Source of the DNA: Candidatus Eiseniibacteriota bacterium | GTDB lineage: Bacteria; Arandabacterota; Arandabacteria; JAGLYR01 | Direction of reading: 5' to 3' | Assembly: GCA_023132135.1 (NCBI GenBank) | Contig: JAGLYR010000286.1 | Location: forward strand, 1 to 8,629 | DNA length: 8,629 nucleotides | In this document: piece after piece, positions 37-8,614 of the stretch | Layout of the letters: each line of letters opens with the position of its first letter | Position numbering within the stretch: position 1 is the stretch's first letter | The notes under the pieces: model-generated | Told to the model about the DNA's origin: nothing | The model's database searches: none | Seen by the model: the letters and a program-made list of their open reading frames with translations, nothing else | Program-made: the position numbers and the translations under genes

Positions 37-975
37 CTACTTCGCAAATCTCTCCCGACACCACTCTATGATTTCATCGATGTCTTCTTCGAGCATACCT
101 TTCGGTTCATAACCCAATACCGACTCCGATTTTGTCAGATCCGCCACGGAGAACAGCATCTCCTCGGGCCGGGCGGGCGCGCTCTCTGGAATCGTCCCCG
201 GTCGAATCCGTTCAATCAGCATCCGGGCGATTTCGTTCACGGTCCATCCTCTTCCCGATCCGATGTTGAAGATGTCCCAGTCGATGTCCGCTTCCAGCGC
301 GAGGAGCGTTCCGTTGACGATGTCCCGAACACTCACGAAATCACGGGTCTGCTCCCCATCGCCGAAGATGACCGGGGGACGGCCGTTCAGCAGCTCCTTC
401 GAGAAGATGGTGATGACGCCAACGTAGGGTGTATAGCCCTGCCGCGGACCATAGACGTTGAAGTAACGAAGGGCCGCAATCCGGATTCCCAAGCTCGGCT
501 GCAGCAGCTCCAGGTACCGCTCGCAGGTCAGCTTTGCCACTCCATAGGGTGAGGGCGGGCCCTTCGGGTAGATTTCGGGAATGGGCGACCGGTCGATGCC
601 GTCGGCGTACACGGCCATTGACGATGCGTAGATGAACTTCCGCACTCCGCTTCCCCTGACTGCATCCAGGAGGGTCAGTGTTCCGAGAACGTTGGTCTGC
701 GCGTCGTCGAGGAATCCTTCCACGGAAGAGCGGACACTGACCCTGGCGGCCAGATGAATCACCGCGTCAACGCCGGACCGGACAACCTTCTTTATCGCAT
801 CATGATCGCGGACATCGCACTTAACGAACTCGGCCTTGGGGTCAAGATTCTCCCGCACGCCCGTGCTGAGGTTGTCCACGACGACGACGTCGACGCCGCG
901 GTCGATCAGGGCATCCACTAGGTGGGATCCGACGAAGCCGGCGCCCCCGGTTACCAGGATCCTCTCGAAGTTCAT
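37..975 (-). CDS. NAD-dependent NDP-sugar epimerase/dehydratase (extended SDR, UDP-glucose 4-epimerase-like)
   Basis: A 312-aa extended short-chain dehydrogenase/reductase, the usual length for sugar-nucleotide epimerases. Visible motifs are the Rossmann TGGAGFVGS dinucleotide-binding loop (residues 9-17), HLAA (74-77), the ASS serines (117-119), the catalytic YxxxK pair Y144/K148, LRYFNVYGPRQ (169-179) and RDFVSVRD (211-218). These place it with GalE-like 4-epimerases and related dehydratases acting on NDP-hexoses in the cytoplasm; the exact substrate cannot be read from sequence. The frame stays open upstream to 1266, but that extension is low in plausibility (His/Arg/Pro-rich) and overlaps the nucleotidyltransferase gene. 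I chose the ATG at 975, which starts just before the Rossmann fold and overlaps the upstream stop as ATGA, a sign of translational coupling. It is the last gene of the minus-strand operon. Family certain, substrate uncertain. Confidence 0.95.
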   Translation of the reverse strand: MNFERILVTGGAGFVGSHLVDALIDRGVDVVVVDNLSTGVRENLDPKAEFVKCDVRDHDAIKKVVRSGVDAVIHLAARVSVRSSVEGFLDDAQTNVLGTLTLLDAVRGSGVRKFIYASSMAVYADGIDRSPIPEIYPKGPPSPYGVAKLTCERYLELLQPSLGIRIAALRYFNVYGPRQGYTPYVGVITIFSKELLNGRPPVIFGDGEQTRDFVSVRDIVNGTLLALEADIDWDIFNIGSGRGWTVNEIARMLIERIRPGTIPESAPARPEEMLFSVADLTKSESVLGYEPKGMLEEDIDEIIEWCRERFAK

Positions 976-1937
976 GAGAAGTCCTTCAGGAATGGCTCCC
1001 CGCTGAAGTCCATGGTCACCTTCTCGGATTTGAGGGAGTTCACAAGATCCCCAACGTTTCGGACATGCGTGTGTGGGAGAATGAGGGAGTTGGTGATGCG
1101 GATGGGATTCTCGATGACTACGTCGTCGCCGATAACGGAATTCTCGATTGTGCAACCATCGGGAATCACCGCCGTGGCCGGGATGATGTTCGCCTCTCCC
1201 TGGTGACTCATCATCCTCAGGTTGCACTCGAGAAGGTCCTCGATGTAGGTGAGGTTGAGGTCCCACTTAACGACATCCTCGGCGTAGACCGCGTAGCCGT
1301 CATCGATGAGAATCTGGATGGAGTTGGTGATCTCATACTCGTCACGCATGGCGGTTCGCGGTGTGCGCCGGATGGCGTCGAATATGGGAAGGGCAAAGAG
1401 GTAGATTCCGACGCCCTTGAGCGCCTGCTCCACGTGCCGGGGTTTCTCGACGACCCGCTCAGCGCGGTTGTCCTTCCCGACAGTCACTGCAAAGTTCCGG
1501 CGGATGTTCTCAGGCGTGTCGTTGGATCGAACCGCAAGGACAGAAACCTGGGGATCCTTCAGTGTTCGGGCCAGGAGACGATCCAGATCCGGGATTGCGC
1601 TGAAGATGTCGCCGAGGAAGAGGAGAAACGGACGATCCATCAGCCCCTCGAGCTGTCCCACCGCGTGGGCAATCCCCAGTGCATCCTGCTGCTCCACGTA
1701 TTCGATGGCCACGCCCAGGGAGCTGCCGTCTCCGAAATAGTCGATGATCTGTTTCTTGAGGTGCCCGACAACGATCGCAATCTCGGTGATCGCATTGTCC
1801 CGCATGAGCTCAATCTGGTACTGGAGAATGGGCTTGTTACACACGGGAAGAAGGGGCTTGGGGAACTCCTCGCCAAAAATATCGACCCGCGAGCCCTTCC
1901 CCGCCGCCAGTATCGCACCCCTCAGCTTGTTCGACAC
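972..1937 (-). CDS. Sugar-1-phosphate nucleotidyltransferase (NDP-sugar pyrophosphorylase)
   Basis: A 321-aa NTP_transferase protein that would make an NDP-sugar and pyrophosphate from a sugar-1-phosphate and an NTP. Seen directly: the nucleotide-binding loop LAAGKGSRV (10-18), PKPLLP (26-31), QQDALGIAHAV (83-93; the base/sugar-contact segment of RmlA/GalU-like enzymes), GD (109-110; metal site), VEKP (163-166) and EYEITNSI (200-207). Residues about 250-295 have isoleucine/valine-spaced hexapeptide-like repeats (IPDGCTIENSVIGDDVVIE), as in the C-terminal left-handed beta-helix of COG1208/COG1209 enzymes. Start is GTG with AGGGAG just upstream, overlapping the TAG stop of the glycosyltransferase; the intergenic gap is 10 bp. 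The stop overlaps the epimerase start by 4 bp. Glucose-1-phosphate thymidylyl- or uridylyltransferase is most likely, but mannose-1-phosphate cannot be excluded. It probably supplies the activated sugar used by the neighbouring epimerase and glycosyltransferases. Confidence 0.92.
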   Translation of the reverse strand: MSNKLRGAILAAGKGSRVDIFGEEFPKPLLPVCNKPILQYQIELMRDNAITEIAIVVGHLKKQIIDYFGDGSSLGVAIEYVEQQDALGIAHAVGQLEGLMDRPFLLFLGDIFSAIPDLDRLLARTLKDPQVSVLAVRSNDTPENIRRNFAVTVGKDNRAERVVEKPRHVEQALKGVGIYLFALPIFDAIRRTPRTAMRDEYEITNSIQILIDDGYAVYAEDVVKWDLNLTYIEDLLECNLRMMSHQGEANIIPATAVIPDGCTIENSVIGDDVVIENPIRITNSLILPHTHVRNVGDLVNSLKSEKVTMDFSGEPFLKDFS

Positions 1938-1947
1938 TCTCGTCTCC

Positions 1948-2712
1948 CTACAACTCTGTGATCTCGCCGCGTCGATATCGCCGGATCTTGCGCTTCAGGC
2001 ACAACAGGAACCCGAAGAATTCCCAGCCGGTCTTGCCGACCTTGAGGGCTGTGGCGCCGCCGGCGCGCGCGTAGTGCGTGATCTCACACTCTCCAATTCG
2101 GTATCCCAGCGCATGGATCTTGAGCAGGATCTCGGTGGGCGCCGAGAAACCTCCGGATTCGATCTCGATGGCCTGCAGGGTCTCGGGCCGATAGATCTTC
2201 AACGCACAATTGGTGTCCCGGAACGGCACGCCGAAGAGAATGCGCACCATCACGTTGAGGGCCCGGTCCGCCAGGAACCGGACGAAGCTGTCCCGCTTCC
2301 GGTCCCGGTAGCCCGTGACGACGTCGTACTTCCCGTCGATCAGCGTATCGTACAGTTGAGCGTACTCGGCGATGTCAAACTGCCCGTCCGAATCCAGCGT
2401 GACAATCCAGCGGCCCCGGGCCTCGCGGATAGCGTCCTTCAGGGCTCCGCCGTATCCTTGGTTCAGCGCGTTGTCGACAACCTTCAGGTTGCTGAATTCG
2501 TCGGCGAGCTGGTGGAGGATCTCGGCCGTGTTGTCCGAGCTGCCGTCATTGGTGATGATGATCTCGGCCCGGATCCCCGTATCACGAATCATTCTCTGCC
2601 AGCGCCGGACAATTCCCTCGATGGTTACCGACTCGTTGTAGGCGGGTGCAGCGAAGGAGAAGTCGTAGGGGAGAGGACTCTTCTCCGCGGCAGTGTTGAG
2701 TCCTGGGTTCAC
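1948..2712 (-). CDS. Family 2 glycosyltransferase (dolichyl-/polyprenyl-phosphate mannose synthase-like)
   Basis: A 254-aa GT-A fold glycosyltransferase. Motifs in order: PAYNE (23-27), NDGSSDNT (55-62), NQGYGGA (84-90), the DSD metal/nucleotide motif in TLDSDGQFD (105-113) and RDTNCALKIYR (165-175), which matches the acceptor-side segment of DPM1-type enzymes. No transmembrane helix is obvious at the C-terminus, which is basic (KRKIRRYRR, 240-248). It therefore resembles the soluble or peripheral DPM1 type rather than the GtrB type with two C-terminal helices. The expected reaction is transfer of a hexose from an NDP-sugar to a polyprenyl phosphate or glycan acceptor at the cytoplasmic membrane. 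Start is GTG at 2712 with a weak GCGGAG ribosome site; no ATG in a better position was seen. First gene of the minus-strand operon and divergent from the GT4 gene. Confidence 0.9.
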   Translation of the reverse strand: MNPGLNTAAEKSPLPYDFSFAAPAYNESVTIEGIVRRWQRMIRDTGIRAEIIITNDGSSDNTAEILHQLADEFSNLKVVDNALNQGYGGALKDAIREARGRWIVTLDSDGQFDIAEYAQLYDTLIDGKYDVVTGYRDRKRDSFVRFLADRALNVMVRILFGVPFRDTNCALKIYRPETLQAIEIESGGFSAPTEILLKIHALGYRIGECEITHYARAGGATALKVGKTGWEFFGFLLCLKRKIRRYRRGEITEL

Positions 2713-2783
2713 GAGCGCTCCGCTGGACGGGATTCGCAGTGTGCCGGCGAAGGGAGTCGCCGGCCTCGCCTGTCTCGTATTTG

Positions 2784-2812
2784 ATTATCCCATTCTAGGG
2801 TGCAGATGTCGG
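2784..2812 (-). promoter_or_regulatory. Candidate sigma70-type promoter of the minus-strand sugar-nucleotide operon
   Basis: Reading the minus strand, CCGACA (2812-2807; 4 of 6 to TTGACA) is followed after 17 bp by GATAAT (2789-2784; 5 of 6 to TATAAT). Transcription would start near 2777, giving a leader of about 65 nt before the GTG of the family 2 glycosyltransferase. An alternative -10 (TAGAAT, 2797-2792) lies close by with a poorer -35 (TTGCGC). This is motif matching only, in an AT-richer patch of the divergent spacer. Confidence 0.38.
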
Positions 2813-2864
2813 GAGCGCAAGGCCAAGCTTTCACGGAAAGTGAATGACTGTCAACCGTCTGCTG

Positions 2865-2902
2865 TGCTAGCCTGCATTATTCATGAATAATGCAGGCTAG
2901 CA
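2865..2902. repeat. Perfect 38-bp palindrome in the divergent promoter region
   Basis: Two exactly complementary 19-nt arms meet at TCATGA (centre between 2883 and 2884). The left arm begins TGCTAGCCTGCATTATTCA and the right arm is its full reverse complement, with no mismatch and no spacer. It ends 16 bp before the GT4 start codon and 4 bp before its GGGAG ribosome site. It could be an operator for a dimeric or tetrameric regulator, or a 5'-leader hairpin hiding the ribosome site. An AATAAT hexamer (2886-2891) inside the right arm could act as a -10, but no good -35 precedes it. No U-run follows on either strand, so it is not an intrinsic terminator. Part of the arm recurs at 4916-4926. Confidence 0.9.
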
Positions 2903-2918
2903 TCTGGGAGATTAAACT

Positions 2919-3938
2919 ATGCATGTTGCCATGCTGTCCCCCGTCGCCTGGCGCACTCCGCCGAGGCACTACGGTCCCTGGGAAAGGGTTGTATCACTCC
3001 TCACCGAAGGGCTTGTGAGGCGCGGGGTGGAAGTGACGCTTTTTGCCACAGCGGATTCCGTGACGGCGGCGAGTCTCCGCGCCGTTTGCCCGGCAGGCTA
3101 CGAGGAGGACAGGGATCTCGATCCCAAGGTCTGGGAGTCCCTGCACATCTCCGAGCTCTTTGAGCACGGCGATGAGTTCGATCTAATCCACAACCACTTC
3201 GATTTCCTGCCCCTGACATATACAGGGATGACGCGCACCCCGGTGGTCTCGACCATCCACGGTTTTTCCTCCCCCCGAATCCTTCCGGTGTACAAGAAAT
3301 ATGATGGCCGCGTGTTCTACGTCTCTATCAGCAACGCGGACCGATCACCGGAGCTGACGTATCTGGCCACGGTCCATCATGGAATCGATATCGAACGCTT
3401 CTCCTTCCGCGCGGATTGTGGTGAGTACCTGCTCTTCTTCGGCCGCATCCATCACGACAAGGGCGCAAAGGAGGCCATCGAGATCGCAAGACGGTTTGGG
3501 AAGAAGCTCATTCTCGCGGGCATCATCCAGGACGAAGCCTATTTCGAGCGAGAGGTGAAGCCCTGTCTGGAGGATGGCGAGATTGAGTTCGTGGGCAGTG
3601 CAGGTCCGGAAAAGAGGGACGATCTCCTCGGGGGGGCCTACGCGCTTCTCCACTCCATCAATTTCGATGAACCTTTCGGGCTGTCTGTAGTCGAATCGAT
3701 GGCCTGCGGGACGCCGGTGGTGGCGTTCCGTCGCGGCAGCATGCCGGAGCTCATCACGCATGGTGAAGACGGATTCCTGGTCCCGGATGTGGACGAGGCT
3801 GTGAGGGCGCTGGGAGAAATCCCAAAGATCGCTAGAGCCAGGTGCCGAAAGACTGTTGAAGAGCGCTTCACGGCAGAGCGAATGGTTGAAAACTACATCG
3901 AAGTCTATCGCGGGATTCTCGCGACGGCTCCAACCTAG
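2919..3938 (+). CDS. Family 4 glycosyltransferase (GT-B fold)
   Basis: A 339-aa retaining glycosyltransferase. The N-terminal domain carries the acceptor-side signature VAWRTPPRHYGPWERVVSLL (9-28, in place of the more usual PPxxYGG) and GLVRRGVEVTLFATADS (31-47), followed by HNHFDF (91-96) and TIHGF (112-116). The C-terminal donor domain shows FFGRIHHDKG (173-182) and EPFGLSVVES (251-260), containing the EX7E pair E251/E259, then MACGTPVVAFRRGSMPELI (261-279). These are standard GT4 features for NDP-sugar binding; donor and acceptor are not predictable. The ATG has GGAG 8 bp upstream and starts the plus-strand unit. The GH130 gene follows after 14 bp, so the two are almost certainly co-transcribed. 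At 339 aa it is slightly short for GT4 but complete. Confidence 0.93.
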   Translation: MHVAMLSPVAWRTPPRHYGPWERVVSLLTEGLVRRGVEVTLFATADSVTAASLRAVCPAGYEEDRDLDPKVWESLHISELFEHGDEFDLIHNHFDFLPLTYTGMTRTPVVSTIHGFSSPRILPVYKKYDGRVFYVSISNADRSPELTYLATVHHGIDIERFSFRADCGEYLLFFGRIHHDKGAKEAIEIARRFGKKLILAGIIQDEAYFEREVKPCLEDGEIEFVGSAGPEKRDDLLGGAYALLHSINFDEPFGLSVVESMACGTPVVAFRRGSMPELITHGEDGFLVPDVDEAVRALGEIPKIARARCRKTVEERFTAERMVENYIEVYRGILATAPT

Positions 3939-3952
3939 ACACGGAGAATGCG

Positions 3953-4888
3953 ATGGCAGGCCCTTTGGTCCATCGATACGAGAAGAACCCGATCCTGACC
4001 AGTAAAGACGTTCCCTATCCCGTTGAGACTGTCCACAATGCGGGGGTAGTCGCGCACGGGGGCGGCTACGTCATGCTCTTTCGCTCGCACCTGAAGACCG
4101 GCCGGTCAGTGATCGGGCTCGCCGAGAGCAAGGATGGTTTCTCCTTCACCGTGAGGCCGAAGCCTTTCCTGACGCCGGCCGAGGAAGGCATCTTTGCGGA
4201 GTACGAGGCCTTCGGCGTGGAGGATCCCCGGATCAGCTGTGTGGATGGAGAGTACCTCATCACCTACAGCGCCTACTCGAGGCACGGCGTTCGAATCGCG
4301 CTGGCCAGGACACGCGATTTCAGAGAAGTCGAAAGGGTGGCGGTCATCACCCAGGCGGATCACCGAAACATCGTGGTTTTCCCGGAGAAGTTCGGCAACC
4401 GCTATGTTCGTCTGGATCGACCTCATTCGGAGATCGCTCCGTGGTCCATCTGGATTTCCTACTCGCCGGATCTGGTCCACTGGGGAGAGTCGCGGCGCAT
4501 TATTGCTCCGGTCCCGTACCACTGGGATGAGGCGAAAGTGGGCCCCGGCGCGCCTCCGATCAAGACCGACAGGGGTTGGCTCAGCATCTACCACGGGGCT
4601 TTCCAGACCATGGGCGGTGGGGTCTATCGCCTCGGGATTGCCCTGCACGATCTCGGGGATCCTTCGAAAGTACTGGGTGTGGGCGACGAGTGGATTCTCC
4701 AGCCGGAGGATCCCTGGGAAATCACCGGGTATGTGCCCAACGTGGTTTTTTCATGCGGAGCTGTTCCGGAGGACGACGGGACGGTGAAGATTTACTGGGG
4801 CGCCGCCGACACGGTGATGTGCGTCGGCACCGCATCCATCGACGCTCTGGTTGATCATTGCATCAAATGCTCCAGGCGGGCGAAGTAG
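3953..4888 (+). CDS. GH130-family glycosidase (beta-mannoside phosphorylase or hydrolase)
   Basis: A 311-aa five-bladed beta-propeller enzyme of family GH130. Diagnostic segments are HRYEKNPILTSKD (7-19), GVEDPRI (88-94, with D91 the predicted proton-donor aspartate), YLITYSAYS (101-109), HRNIVVFPEKFGNRYVRLDRP (137-157), KVGPGAPP (195-202), YHG (213-215), GYVPNVVFSCG (259-269) and YWGAAD (281-286). GH130 enzymes cleave beta-1,2- or beta-1,4-mannosides, mostly by inorganic phosphate attack releasing mannose-1-phosphate; some members are hydrolases. Basic residues at the usual anion-binding positions (R138, R156, K195, H214) look retained, which favours phosphorolysis, by inference. No signal peptide, so cytoplasmic. 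ATG 3953 has GGAG 6 bp upstream. Linkage to the GT4 gene suggests the pair acts on the same glycan or oligosaccharide. The basic, Cys-containing tail HCIKCSRRAK is unremarkable. Confidence 0.93.
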   Translation: MAGPLVHRYEKNPILTSKDVPYPVETVHNAGVVAHGGGYVMLFRSHLKTGRSVIGLAESKDGFSFTVRPKPFLTPAEEGIFAEYEAFGVEDPRISCVDGEYLITYSAYSRHGVRIALARTRDFREVERVAVITQADHRNIVVFPEKFGNRYVRLDRPHSEIAPWSIWISYSPDLVHWGESRRIIAPVPYHWDEAKVGPGAPPIKTDRGWLSIYHGAFQTMGGGVYRLGIALHDLGDPSKVLGVGDEWILQPEDPWEITGYVPNVVFSCGAVPEDDGTVKIYWGAADTVMCVGTASIDALVDHCIKCSRRAK

Positions 4889-4974: not shown

Positions 4975-5532
4975 ATGAGCCGCAACCGGATCCTGCGCGA
5001 CAAATTGCAAGGGTTTGCCGTCGAGTACTACGTTGCCAATGTACTGACCAGAAACGGCTGTCTGGTCCGAACCGTTCCCGAGGATTCCACCACGGGTTTC
5101 AGCCTTCTTTGCGAGACCGACGAGAACAGCCGCGGGAAGAGGGAGCCGTTCCAGCACTTCTGGGTCCACGTGAGAACAGGAGACCGGGTGAGTCTCATTG
5201 AGCCCGGGAAGCAGGCGTCCTGCCTCTTCAAGGCAAAGGAGCTGCTCTACTGGGCCCGGCAACCGATCCCCGTCTACGCCTTCCTTATTCCGGAGTACTC
5301 CAGCGCCTCGCTGCCGGACACAATCTACATTGTGGATCTGTCCGGCCATCTCACTGATCTGCAGATCCCGATGGACAAGGACAGGCTCACGCTGCGGTCG
5401 AATCGGCTGATCCATCCGGAGTCCGAGGAGGACTGCCGGCGCTTCCTGTCGTCTATTGCAATTGAGAGTGAAGTGCCGACCTTCACGAGTGATGTTGTGG
5501 AGGAGATTGCTCTCCCCAAGCCCGCTCAATGA
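4975..5532 (+). CDS. Uncharacterised 185-aa protein, DUF4365-like degenerate PD-(D/E)XK fold
   Basis: A complete small cytoplasmic protein with no signal peptide or membrane segment. Its layout recalls the DUF4365/restriction-endonuclease-like fold: an N-terminal helix with a conserved-type Glu (GFAVEYYVANVLTRNG, 13-28), a strand-turn region (PEDSTTGFSLLCE, 35-47), a strand ending in FWVHVRTG (62-69), then LLYWARQPIPVYAFLIP (90-106) and TIYIVDLSG (116-124). In active members the middle region has D-x-G-x-D and a (Q/E)-x-K strand. Here these positions read roughly TTGFS and HVR, so nuclease activity is doubtful. The ribosome site is strong (GAAGGAGG, 8 bp from the ATG), so it is well translated. 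It follows GH130 by 86 bp and overlaps the convergent symporter gene by 50 bp. The family call rests on pattern memory only; function unknown. Confidence 0.8.
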   Translation: MSRNRILRDKLQGFAVEYYVANVLTRNGCLVRTVPEDSTTGFSLLCETDENSRGKREPFQHFWVHVRTGDRVSLIEPGKQASCLFKAKELLYWARQPIPVYAFLIPEYSSASLPDTIYIVDLSGHLTDLQIPMDKDRLTLRSNRLIHPESEEDCRRFLSSIAIESEVPTFTSDVVEEIALPKPAQ

Positions 5533-6940
5533 GCTCCGCTCTCGGGCGCCTAGTCGTCAGCGACACCACCACAATTACGATCAGCCCCACAACGGTCCCC
5601 GCGATGAACCCGTGAATGCCCAAGGGGTTCTTGAAAGCCATCCAGGCGAGAGCTGTCGCGGCGCCGGCGGCCATGGAAGCAAAGGCCCCGGCCCCGTTGG
5701 CGCGTTTCCAGTAGATGCCGAAGAGCAAGGGCCATAGGTTGGTCGACGCGATTACGGCCCAGGAAAAGGCGGTGAGAACGAGGATCAAGGCGGGTGGGCG
5801 CAGCGCAATCAGAAGGGAAACGATGCCCACTGCCGCGCTGATGAGACGCGTGATGCGGAGTTCCCGGCTCGGCTCGAGCCGAAGCGAAAGCCCCTTCTCC
5901 AGAATGTCCTTCACCAGTGAGCTGGAAGTGATGATGAGAACTCCTGCGAACGTTGACATCCCTGCAGCAATCACACCTGCCAGGAAGACAGCGGCCCAGA
6001 TGGGGGAGAGAACACCTTTGGTGAGAGTGGGAATCGCCAGGTCCGGACTGGAGAGGTCCGGGTAGAGAACGCGCGCAATTGCCCCATTGAGGTAGGGAAG
6101 AAGAGCAATGCACGCGCCGACCGTCACGACCACCGTACCGACCCGGAGGACCCGGGTGTCCTTGATCGAATAGAACCGGATCAGAAGTTGGGGCATGCCC
6201 CAGGTACCCAGACTCACGATCAGGCAAAAGGAGATGAGCCCGGCCCAGCCCCAGGTTCCCGGTGTGTGGAGAAGACCCGGATCGATCGCAGCCAGCTTCG
6301 TGTGTGCGGCAGACAAGCCTCCCACGGCGTTCAGGGAGAAGAACGTCAGCAGGACCAAGCCGAAGATCATGACCCACGCCTGGAGAAAGCTGGTCCACAC
6401 GACGGCCAGGTATCCTCCGACGCCCACGTAGAAGATTATGATGACCCCGGAGATCAGGACGCCGCCCCAGTACGGCATGCCCATCAGGACTTCCATGGCG
6501 TTGCCCATGCCCTTCAACACGCTCACGTTGTAGATGATGAGGAAGAGGAAGATCACGGCGGACGAGAACACCCGGCACTCGGGCGAGTGGTAACGCTCGT
6601 TGAAGAATCCGGAGATTGTCATGACGCCCAGCCGCTCGGTGAAGAGCCGGACGCGTTTGCCGAGAACAATCCAGCAGAGGAAGCACCCAACGAGGACGTT
6701 GACGGCTCCGATCCAGATTGTCGCCATCCCGAACCTGTAGCCGAAACCGCCACCGCCGATGATCAGGACGGAGGAGAAGTACGCGGCAACAAAGGAGAGA
6801 GCTGTGACCCAGGGGCCGACGGAGCGTCCCCCGATCGCGAAATCCGCGGGATCCTTTGTCTTTCTGCCCGTTGCAATCCCTATCCATGCCAGCGCGGCAA
6901 GATAGACGGCGAGAACGATGATGCAGGTTGCCAGTTCCAT
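5483..6940 (-). CDS. Sodium:solute symporter family (SSS/SLC5) permease
   Basis: A 485-aa polytopic inner-membrane protein with about 13 hydrophobic segments, the normal SSS size. Family signatures: FAIGGRSVGPWVTALSFVAA (34-53), the GGGGFGYRFG loop (62-71), and GMSTFAGVLIITSSSLVKDI (327-346). The last contains the TM8 serines (339-341) that form the Na2 site in vSGLT-type transporters, and is followed by the usual cytoplasmic loop. This supports Na+-coupled uptake; the substrate (sugar, amino acid, carboxylate or vitamin) is not readable. The C-terminal tail from about 464 is charged and cytoplasmic. ATG 6940 is preceded by AAGGGG at 6 bp. It is the last gene of the porin-microprotein-symporter operon, 40 bp after the microprotein stop. 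Its last 50 bp overlap the opposite-strand DUF4365-like gene, with no room for a separate terminator. Confidence 0.94.
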   Translation of the reverse strand: MELATCIIVLAVYLAALAWIGIATGRKTKDPADFAIGGRSVGPWVTALSFVAAYFSSVLIIGGGGFGYRFGMATIWIGAVNVLVGCFLCWIVLGKRVRLFTERLGVMTISGFFNERYHSPECRVFSSAVIFLFLIIYNVSVLKGMGNAMEVLMGMPYWGGVLISGVIIIFYVGVGGYLAVVWTSFLQAWVMIFGLVLLTFFSLNAVGGLSAAHTKLAAIDPGLLHTPGTWGWAGLISFCLIVSLGTWGMPQLLIRFYSIKDTRVLRVGTVVVTVGACIALLPYLNGAIARVLYPDLSSPDLAIPTLTKGVLSPIWAAVFLAGVIAAGMSTFAGVLIITSSSLVKDILEKGLSLRLEPSRELRITRLISAAVGIVSLLIALRPPALILVLTAFSWAVIASTNLWPLLFGIYWKRANGAGAFASMAAGAATALAWMAFKNPLGIHGFIAGTVVGLIVIVVVSLTTRRPRAELIERAWGEQSPPQHHS

Positions 6941-6954
6941 ATCGAACCCCTTGT

Positions 6955-6980: not shown

Positions 6981-7082
6981 TCAGGTCTTCCTGACCAGCG
7001 CCCGGATTACGGCCACAACCACAGTCAGTCCCGCCACGATCCAGGCAAGAAAGGTTGACCACGGTGCATTGAAGGGTCCCAT
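6981..7082 (-). CDS. 33-aa single-span membrane microprotein, putative symporter accessory subunit
   Basis: A complete small reading frame that is too short for ordinary gene calling. It begins MGPFNAPWSTFLAW, continues as a hydrophobic helix (about residues 10-29, rich in Ala, Val, Ile and Leu) and ends in a basic RALVRKT tail followed by TGA. The positive-inside rule would put the C-terminus in the cytoplasm. Support for reality: AGGAG sits 5 bp before the ATG; it fits exactly between the porin stop (27-bp gap) and the symporter start (40-bp gap); and its composition is that of a transmembrane segment. Comparable one-helix subunits are known beside sodium symporters, for example MetS with the NSS-family MetP, and small accessory proteins annotated next to SSS permeases. 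I infer, but cannot prove, that it binds or stabilises the adjacent symporter. Confidence 0.72.
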   Translation of the reverse strand: MGPFNAPWSTFLAWIVAGLTVVVAVIRALVRKT

Positions 7083-7109
7083 TGCAACTCCTATGGTGGA
7101 TGTCTCCGG

Positions 7110-8438
7110 TTAGAGGTCCACGAGTAACTCCCATCTCAGGAACACTGCCTTGCTCCGCCCGTACCCGGCGGGATGTCCGGGCGGAGGGTAGCAGTCCAGG
7201 GGAACGAATGGCTCGGCGGCGGGTACGTGGGGAACGAATGTCTCGGCGAGTACATGTCCCGTCACTCTTGCATGCAAGCGGAACTTGACCTCCCCCTGGA
7301 GATTCCACCCGCGGAAGACCGATGTCAAGAAGACGGCCTGCTCGGATGCGAAGAAATTGTGGAGCCTGATGGAGAAGGTACCCAGTTGCCCCAGTGGATG
7401 GTGCGTTTTCACGAAGAAGGAGGAGACATTTCGCCACTTGGCGACTCCGCCTTCCCGGATCAGAGTGTAGATGTAGAGCTCGCTCCACTTGGGCCAGCGG
7501 CTGAGGAGCGGATTCCATCCTTCGCAGGTGTTGTCATGGTCTCCCGACAGGCGCAGAACGCCGAGGGTCGCGCTGTGACCTCCGTCGCCAATCTGCATCT
7601 CCAGGTACGCATGCACGCCGGAAGCCGAGACATCGTCGTTCCCGCGCTTCCCGCTCTGAACCGCCGCCTCAACAACGGCCCGGTCGCCGCTGCGCAGGTC
7701 GTGGCTCAACCGCATCCCGAAAGTGTGCAGCTTCAACTCGCGGGATGCCAGGATGCTCGGATCCTCTGTCTTGTGGAAGTAGTAGGGCTGGATCTCGGTT
7801 CCGTGCAAGTGAGTGCACGAAACATGGATGCCGTAGAGCGCCTCGTCGGATTCCACGAGGCTCCGGTCCTGGTCGTTGATGACGGGCAGGTACCTGTCCG
7901 TCCGGGGGTTTGAGATTGCCAACAGATCGATGTTGCCGGAGCGGGTCTTCAGCGTTGCCCGCACAGCGTTGTGGTAGATCATCTGCGAGCCGGCCAGTGG
8001 AGCCCCGTCCATGATCAGGAAACCTTCGCCCAGCATGATGTTCTGGCGGCCGATCGCAAGATCCAGCGGGAGTCCGCCTGCGTCTGTCCAGCGCAGGTAG
8101 AGATTCTCGAAGACGATCTCGCTGATTTCGAAGTCCACATCCGGATGGAAGTAGTAGCGGAACTCGTTGTTGAGGCGGGCGTAGACCTCGATGCTCGGCC
8201 TCACGCGGTACCGGCCCCACAGGGCGCAGCGGATCCGGAAAAAGTGCTTCTGGTCGTCTTCCTTATCGTTGAGGTCAATGGCATTGTCGAGATACACCTG
8301 CCGGATGCGGAGTTGGCAGCCGTAGTTGCGCGGCGGATCGGATCCTGCGTGAACCAGAGTCGGGATCGAGGAGGCCAGGAAGATGATAGAGAGAGAGACG
8401 ATCAGCAGGAGGCGGATGGATCTCGGTTGAGGTGTCAT
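7110..8438 (-). CDS. Predicted outer-membrane beta-barrel protein (porin/alginate-export-like)
   Basis: A 442-aa exported protein. The N-terminus MTPQPRSIRLLLIVSL... has a basic n-region, a hydrophobic core (about 9-28) and a cleavage-like site LVHA|GS near residue 31, i.e. a Sec signal peptide. The mature part has many alternating-hydrophobicity strands rich in Tyr, Phe and Trp (for example SIEVYARLNNEFRYYF, 82-97; ENLYLRWTD, 111-119). It contains AIGRQNIMLGEGFLIMDG (128-145), which resembles the GRQ-x-x-x-G segment of alginate-export-type and related porins. It ends in a strand-like FLRWELLVDL. Expected role: solute passage across the outer membrane for the downstream symporter. The frame is open to 8588, but the extra 50 residues are translated repeat sequence; I chose ATG 8438, with GGGAAG upstream, because it starts the signal peptide. 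ATG 8459 is an alternative. Family assignment moderate, localisation good. Confidence 0.82.
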   Translation of the reverse strand: MTPQPRSIRLLLIVSLSIIFLASSIPTLVHAGSDPPRNYGCQLRIRQVYLDNAIDLNDKEDDQKHFFRIRCALWGRYRVRPSIEVYARLNNEFRYYFHPDVDFEISEIVFENLYLRWTDAGGLPLDLAIGRQNIMLGEGFLIMDGAPLAGSQMIYHNAVRATLKTRSGNIDLLAISNPRTDRYLPVINDQDRSLVESDEALYGIHVSCTHLHGTEIQPYYFHKTEDPSILASRELKLHTFGMRLSHDLRSGDRAVVEAAVQSGKRGNDDVSASGVHAYLEMQIGDGGHSATLGVLRLSGDHDNTCEGWNPLLSRWPKWSELYIYTLIREGGVAKWRNVSSFFVKTHHPLGQLGTFSIRLHNFFASEQAVFLTSVFRGWNLQGEVKFRLHARVTGHVLAETFVPHVPAAEPFVPLDCYPPPGHPAGYGRSKAVFLRWELLVDL

Positions 8439-8466
8439 GACCGGCTTCCCGTTCGCCATGGAATCA

Positions 8467-8501
8467 GTGCTACGTGCTACGTGCCCCGTGCTCCGTGCAA
8501 G
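8467..8501. repeat. Five tandem 7-nt repeats upstream of the porin gene
   Basis: Consecutive units GTGCTAC, GTGCTAC, GTGCCCC, GTGCTCC and GTGCAAG share an invariant GTGC start. They lie 8-29 bp upstream of the two possible porin start codons, in the 191-bp gene-free stretch at the right edge. If transcribed they form part of the porin 5' leader. Confidence 0.85.
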
Positions 8502-8552
8502 GAGAAGGGGCATCGGAAGCAGTCCCTGGCCTGCGGAATTCTGCCCTATTTC

Positions 8553-8568
8553 CTCGACACTCGACACT
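8553..8568. repeat. Period-7 repeat CTCGACA x2
   Basis: Sixteen bases with exact 7-nt periodicity (CTCGACA, CTCGACA, CT). GACA-CTT-TGTC at its right end (8563-8573) also forms a tiny dyad. It is one of three different period-7 tracts within 165 bp upstream of the porin gene. Confidence 0.6.
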
Positions 8569-8614
8569 TTGTCACTCGCCCTCGTCACACGGACGGGGCA
8601 CTGTCCCCAACCCA

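Follow-up and report, generated by a model that had tools for sequence, protein, structure and literature searches.

A conserved single-span microprotein encoded directly upstream of an SSS symporter, probably its accessory subunit

Many SSS proteins function without any small partner, and the need for a microprotein can therefore not be assumed from membership of this family. MetS is the small subunit of the methionine/alanine importer MetP. NF045580, the curated NCBIfam family "symporter small accessory protein" (symport_access), concerns SSS transporters, and a search for that family name found no paper in the literature collection used. MAP17 (PDZK1IP1) is the auxiliary subunit of human SGLT2 and SGLT1. 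This single-span protein is required for the function of SGLT2; it packs on TM13 and belongs to the transporter's scaffold side (PMC10803289). AcrZ, a one-helix small protein, binds the transporter AcrB, a pump, and modulates it (PMC7267776).

The locus under study encodes a microprotein of 33 residues next to an SSS symporter. As with MetS, the gene of a very small single-span protein lies next to that of a LeuT-fold sodium symporter, which here is an SSS protein (PF00474), whereas MetP is a member of the NSS family. MAP17 and the microprotein are both single-span and both have an SSS/SLC5 transporter as partner, which makes them candidate functional analogues, and the N-out/C-in orientation of MAP17 would be expected here as well. 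MAP17 is however longer, and its gene is unlinked to that of its transporter, while the microprotein gene adjoins the symporter gene. AcrZ offers an analogy only, its partner being an unrelated transporter (RND) that is not encoded in the same operon.

The microprotein gene and its surroundings

The window, i.e. the whole stretch of 8,629 nt that was analysed, carries on its minus strand a porin-like ORF, the 33-codon ORF and the SSS symporter gene, in this order. Between the microprotein stop and the symporter start there are 40 nt. The features are the following:

7110-8588, minus strand: porin-like ORF (outer membrane, Alginate_exp-like; weak Pfam match to PF13372, 1.1e-8; start codon uncertain)
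7088-7092, minus strand: Shine-Dalgarno sequence AGGAG, 5 nt to the microprotein ATG (from reading of the sequence)
6981-7082, minus strand: microprotein gene, 33 codons, ATG to TGA
6947-6952, minus strand: Shine-Dalgarno-like AAGGGG, 6 nt to the symporter ATG (from reading of the sequence)
5483-6940, minus strand: SSS symporter gene (SLC5-like, LeuT fold), 485 aa (PF00474, 4.8e-65)

The earlier note had placed a small ORF with a good Shine-Dalgarno sequence at 6981-7082, between porin and symporter; the exact position was confirmed, and the Shine-Dalgarno sequence is the AGGAG at 5 nt from the ATG. The single hydrophobic helix and basic tail that it described were likewise borne out. The microprotein, MGPFNAPWSTFLAWIVAGLTVVVAVIRALVRKT, has one hydrophobic segment with a best 17-residue Kyte-Doolittle mean of 2.54. 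An N-terminal GPFNAPWSTF motif is followed by one predicted transmembrane helix (about residues 8-29), and the protein ends in the basic tail RALVRKT.

A scan of the microprotein against Pfam and NCBIfam gave no match. When 23 further family members were scanned together with it, only noise was obtained, scattered over the members (CydS, E 0.004; B-4DMT, E 0.002). The MetS models NF033493, NF033494 and PF16951 recognised a MetS-like control sequence and none of the window family members tested. The NF045580 model does not recognise the microprotein either (see below); the earlier note, too, had seen no match to the known analogues.

Positions 37 to 4888 of the window carry sugar-nucleotide and glycan genes: a GalE-like epimerase, an NDP-sugar pyrophosphorylase and a GT2 glycosyltransferase on the minus strand, and a GT4 glycosyltransferase and a GH130 mannoside phosphorylase-like protein on the plus strand. 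An ORF of 185 aa (4975-5532, plus strand), with a sub-threshold match to DUF4365 (E 0.019), lies tail-to-tail with the symporter gene and overlaps it by about 50 bp.

Pairing, gene spacing and selection

A species-level genome collection was scanned by pattern for symporter orthologues (at least about 53% identity), and the whole genomes of three phylum-level groups were searched for them. The first was the small group of the window itself, with 8 genomes. The second, the phylum of genome G010, comprised 80 genomes, and several of its loci bear the label Candidatus Krumholzibacteriota or Krumholzibacteriia; the third, that of G022, comprised 147 genomes under the label candidate division WOR-3. 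A profile search yielded 92 distinct versions of the microprotein across the three groups, always as one copy per genome. The family pattern is M-[AG]-P-F-x-x-P-W-x-T-F-x-A ... I-x-W-A, after which comes a charged tail. The frames have 33-50 codons and lie directly upstream of the symporter in nearly every intact orthologous locus, so that the search proposed earlier, for a conserved small frame upstream of the nearest SSS genes, had a positive outcome. In 63 of 89 homologues the frame is preceded by an SD-like motif.

The microprotein was present in all 93 checked genomes with a symporter orthologue, with no counter-example. It is directly upstream in 92 of them, and the remaining one (G021) has the two genes at the ends of different contigs. 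Within the window's own group, six genomes have both genes and two have neither. In the phylum of G010 the microprotein accompanies the symporter in 34 of 34 carriers, while 43 genomes lack both; the three genomes with the microprotein only owe this to contig ends in G038 and G086 and to a broken symporter in G056 (pieces 3-119, 144-242 and 304-446). All 53 symporter carriers of the WOR-3 phylum have the microprotein, and its single occurrence without a symporter match there (G181) coincides with a run of N inside the symporter gene. No microprotein match was obtained in the family search of G077 and G121, whose best SSS proteins are only 34% identical, and none was seen upstream of symporters of other phyla with 30-36% identity. 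Microprotein and symporter are inherited as a one-to-one pair within a single orthologous group of SSS symporters.

The two genes are closely spaced. They overlap in 44 of 89 loci and are separated by 0-30 nt in another 37, and a gap above 60 nt was found in only two. Such adjacency on the same strand, together with the hydrophobic character and with frames that are in register at a dozen loci, is what would be seen if the ORF were the symporter's own N-terminal helix, split off by a frame error, a programmed frameshift or read-through. This explanation is strongly disfavoured: each version is closed by a stop codon of its own, its frame with respect to that of the symporter differs between loci, the symporter possesses a separate start and all 13 helices, and a natural fusion was found for none of the 92 versions.

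Of the 88 loci whose upstream sequence was long enough, 37 had a porin-like ORF ahead of the pair and 51 did not; none was found in the WOR-3 loci, where the microprotein stays, and this ties the microprotein to the symporter rather than to the porin. In the window itself the porin-like ORF adjoins the pair and is a probable member of the operon. The earlier description as a porin-symporter operon thus fits this locus but does not define the family, and the porin-like ORF is outside the conserved microprotein-symporter pair. The microprotein might instead act for the porin, for the envelope in general or as a hydrophobic toxin, sharing the operon by chance; small hydrophobic proteins are common, and the porin does lie upstream in the window and at those 37 loci. 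Such a role is very unlikely, as the microprotein is always found with the symporter even where the porin is missing, occurs in single copy and never alone, and matches no toxin family significantly (one member alone hit Hol_Tox, at a noise-level 0.08).

Nine independent close pairs gave a dN/dS of 0.20 for the microprotein (pS 0.37, pN 0.095; Fisher p 1e-21). The observed pN/pS was 0.26, against a mean of 0.84 and a minimum of 0.54 in 2000 runs of a neutral-placement null. This pattern indicates that 6981-7082 truly encodes a protein, on which purifying selection acts. The dN/dS analysis proposed in the earlier note therefore came out in favour of the gene, and none of the outcomes named there as contrary (frameshifts, stop codons, an absent ribosome site or a lack of purifying selection) was seen. 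Residues M1, P7, T10, F11, A13, V16, W27 and A28 are invariant or almost so. Conservation sits in the N-terminal motif and the helix, and the C-terminal tail is the most variable part. The transmembrane character is retained in all 92 versions. The copy in the window has R at residue 27, where 97% of the family has W, which is an unusual change, and is otherwise a typical member; this R27 could conceivably be a sequencing error.

These data also bear on whether the small ORF could be a leader peptide, whose translation would control symporter expression by coupling or attenuation while the peptide itself had no function. Its position directly 5' of the symporter, the frequent overlap with the symporter start and the short length would agree with a leader. 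On the other hand, selection acts at the amino-acid level, the C-terminal end, which is the usual conserved site of stalling peptides, is here the least conserved, and a transmembrane segment is never lost. A functionless leader is accordingly improbable, although translational coupling may well exist in addition to a function of the peptide.

The reading that is best supported is that the microprotein is an obligate single-span accessory subunit of the adjoining SSS symporter. A dedicated subunit is very probable because the microprotein is kept in front of the symporter, under selection, in 93 of 93 genomes. The earlier proposal of an SSS transport accessory microprotein gains support from its conservation, selection, strict co-occurrence and the near-overlapping genes; binding to the symporter and an effect on transport, which we infer, are considered quite probable.

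The symporter model and the proposed role of the microprotein

Thirteen transmembrane helices are predicted for the symporter, and its AlphaFold2 model had a pLDDT of 88.7 and a pTM of 0.89. Among PDB chains, the best Foldseek E-values were those of human SGLT2 and SGLT1 with MAP17, followed by SiaT, the SGLT2-MAP17 chains reaching a TMq of up to 0.86. In VIA-align the top rank went to SiaT (Z 38, 453 residues); CHT1 and SGLT1/2-MAP17 had Z values of 35-38. The shared fold of the symporter and SGLT2 by itself tells nothing about partners. No substrate could be inferred from the PanF and PutP models, which match the symporter far below their cut-offs. The symporter lacks TM13, the last helix of SGLT2, on which MAP17 packs. 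Because of this absence in a 13-helix symporter, it may be guessed, by analogy, that the microprotein stands near or in place of the missing TM13.

The proposed subunit would be co-translated with the symporter and inserted N-out/C-in, with its basic tail inside. The conserved face formed by P7, T10, F11, A13, V16, W27 and A28 would then pack on the static scaffold of the symporter. By this contact the microprotein would stabilise the folding of the symporter, its localisation or level, or its turnover, like MAP17 for SGLT2.

An AlphaFold model of an in-register microprotein-symporter read-through (locus L108, TAA read as glycine) gave a helix at residues 8-29 (pLDDT 72-78, only moderate confidence) and a disordered linker. 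It was set aside as docking evidence because the tether is artificial. VIA-align rows on this fusion covered the symporter part only and were uninformative on the position of the microprotein. In a joint MAFFT alignment that had the microproteins as separate rows, these were placed on the symporter's own GPWVTALSF motif, and the microprotein rows were dropped.

Covariation between the two proteins was analysed with 35 effective sequences. The top pair, residue 6 of the microprotein and residue 213 of the symporter, outscored all 150 within-clade shuffles; each of these residues has a predicted extracellular position. This is a weak hint of contact, and for the covariation as a whole the topological agreement was not significant (p 0.09).

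A gene of 33 residues is easily missed by annotation. The family described here adds a previously unmodelled microprotein family to the transporter superfamily that includes SGLT2, and a profile built from its alignment would let annotation pipelines call the gene. If the microprotein is indeed a subunit, the bacterial SSS transporters of this group would be two-gene systems, and attempts to express only the large gene may fail or mislead. The pair, being small and cloneable, would also serve as a simple model of the way in which a single helix supports an SSS transporter; for MAP17 this matter is still debated.

Other microproteins upstream of SSS genes

Two further microprotein families were found 5' of other SSS symporters, namely NF045580 (23 loci) and a type represented by locus L002, which occurs in the same genomes as the window family. 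All 23 NF045580 loci, which belong to the phylum of G024, have an SSS symporter directly downstream. The search with the window family brought up no convincing member in 199 genomes of this phylum, its best match (E 6e-4) lying inside a frame of 538 codons. Conversely, none of 78 genomes from the G010 phylum, carriers of the window family included, had a match to the NF045580 model at the curated cut-off of 35 bits. Neither did the model match the window ORF with 23 members or three WOR-3 members, while a family-like control sequence scored 77 bits.

Both families consist of proteins of 33-38 aa with one transmembrane helix, encoded directly 5' of an SSS symporter. NF045580 has an invariant C and W-N (LCVVYG..NWN), which the window family lacks, showing instead PW-TF...WA, and its partner symporters are of another SSS group than that of the window (phmmer bit scores 85-164). 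Single-profile searches between the two families reached E 0.001 at best. With hhalign, the comparison gave a full-length match with probabilities of 79-85% over 28-34 colinear columns and scores of 24.4-25.7. Reversed profiles scored 18.9-19.8, and 70 helix windows of SSS symporters scored at most 18.4. A score above all controls is suggestive of remote descent from a common source, which is not proof. Judged from sequence, the window family is new and well supported, and its kind is already named in one NCBI family. The earlier suggestion of a new accessory family holds as far as Pfam and NCBIfam do not recognise it; an SSS-partner precedent exists nonetheless, and a remote relation to it is suggested.

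The L002 locus (G000:C14:9778-11181) encodes a second SSS symporter of the window's genome, with a small one-helix ORF upstream, MPTSTLLVVFGSWVILAALTLLHYFVWGKPDRGGEE. This ORF is kept in six relatives (L241-L246) as MNDVMPASTLLAIGLPPVGFIIAIICIYIFKTEED-like sequences. The genome's own L002-type sequence had no NCBIfam or Pfam match, and the type looks like another unannotated SSS-partner family. Its hhalign comparison with the window family (probability 31%, 11 columns) was indistinguishable from controls.

A broader view would be that bacterial and archaeal SSS proteins commonly carry lineage-specific, remotely related single-span subunits, such as the window family, NF045580 and the L002-type, and form heterodimers with them, the one of the window supplying a scaffold helix in trans near the place of SGLT2 TM13/MAP17; the small subunits would then have been overlooked by annotation. 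This generalisation is possible but rather doubtful. In the window's genome, a further three SSS genes (L003, L004 and L005) lack a small hydrophobic ORF upstream, which suggests that a small partner is specific to certain SSS groups. Two of them, L004 and L005, are tandem genes.
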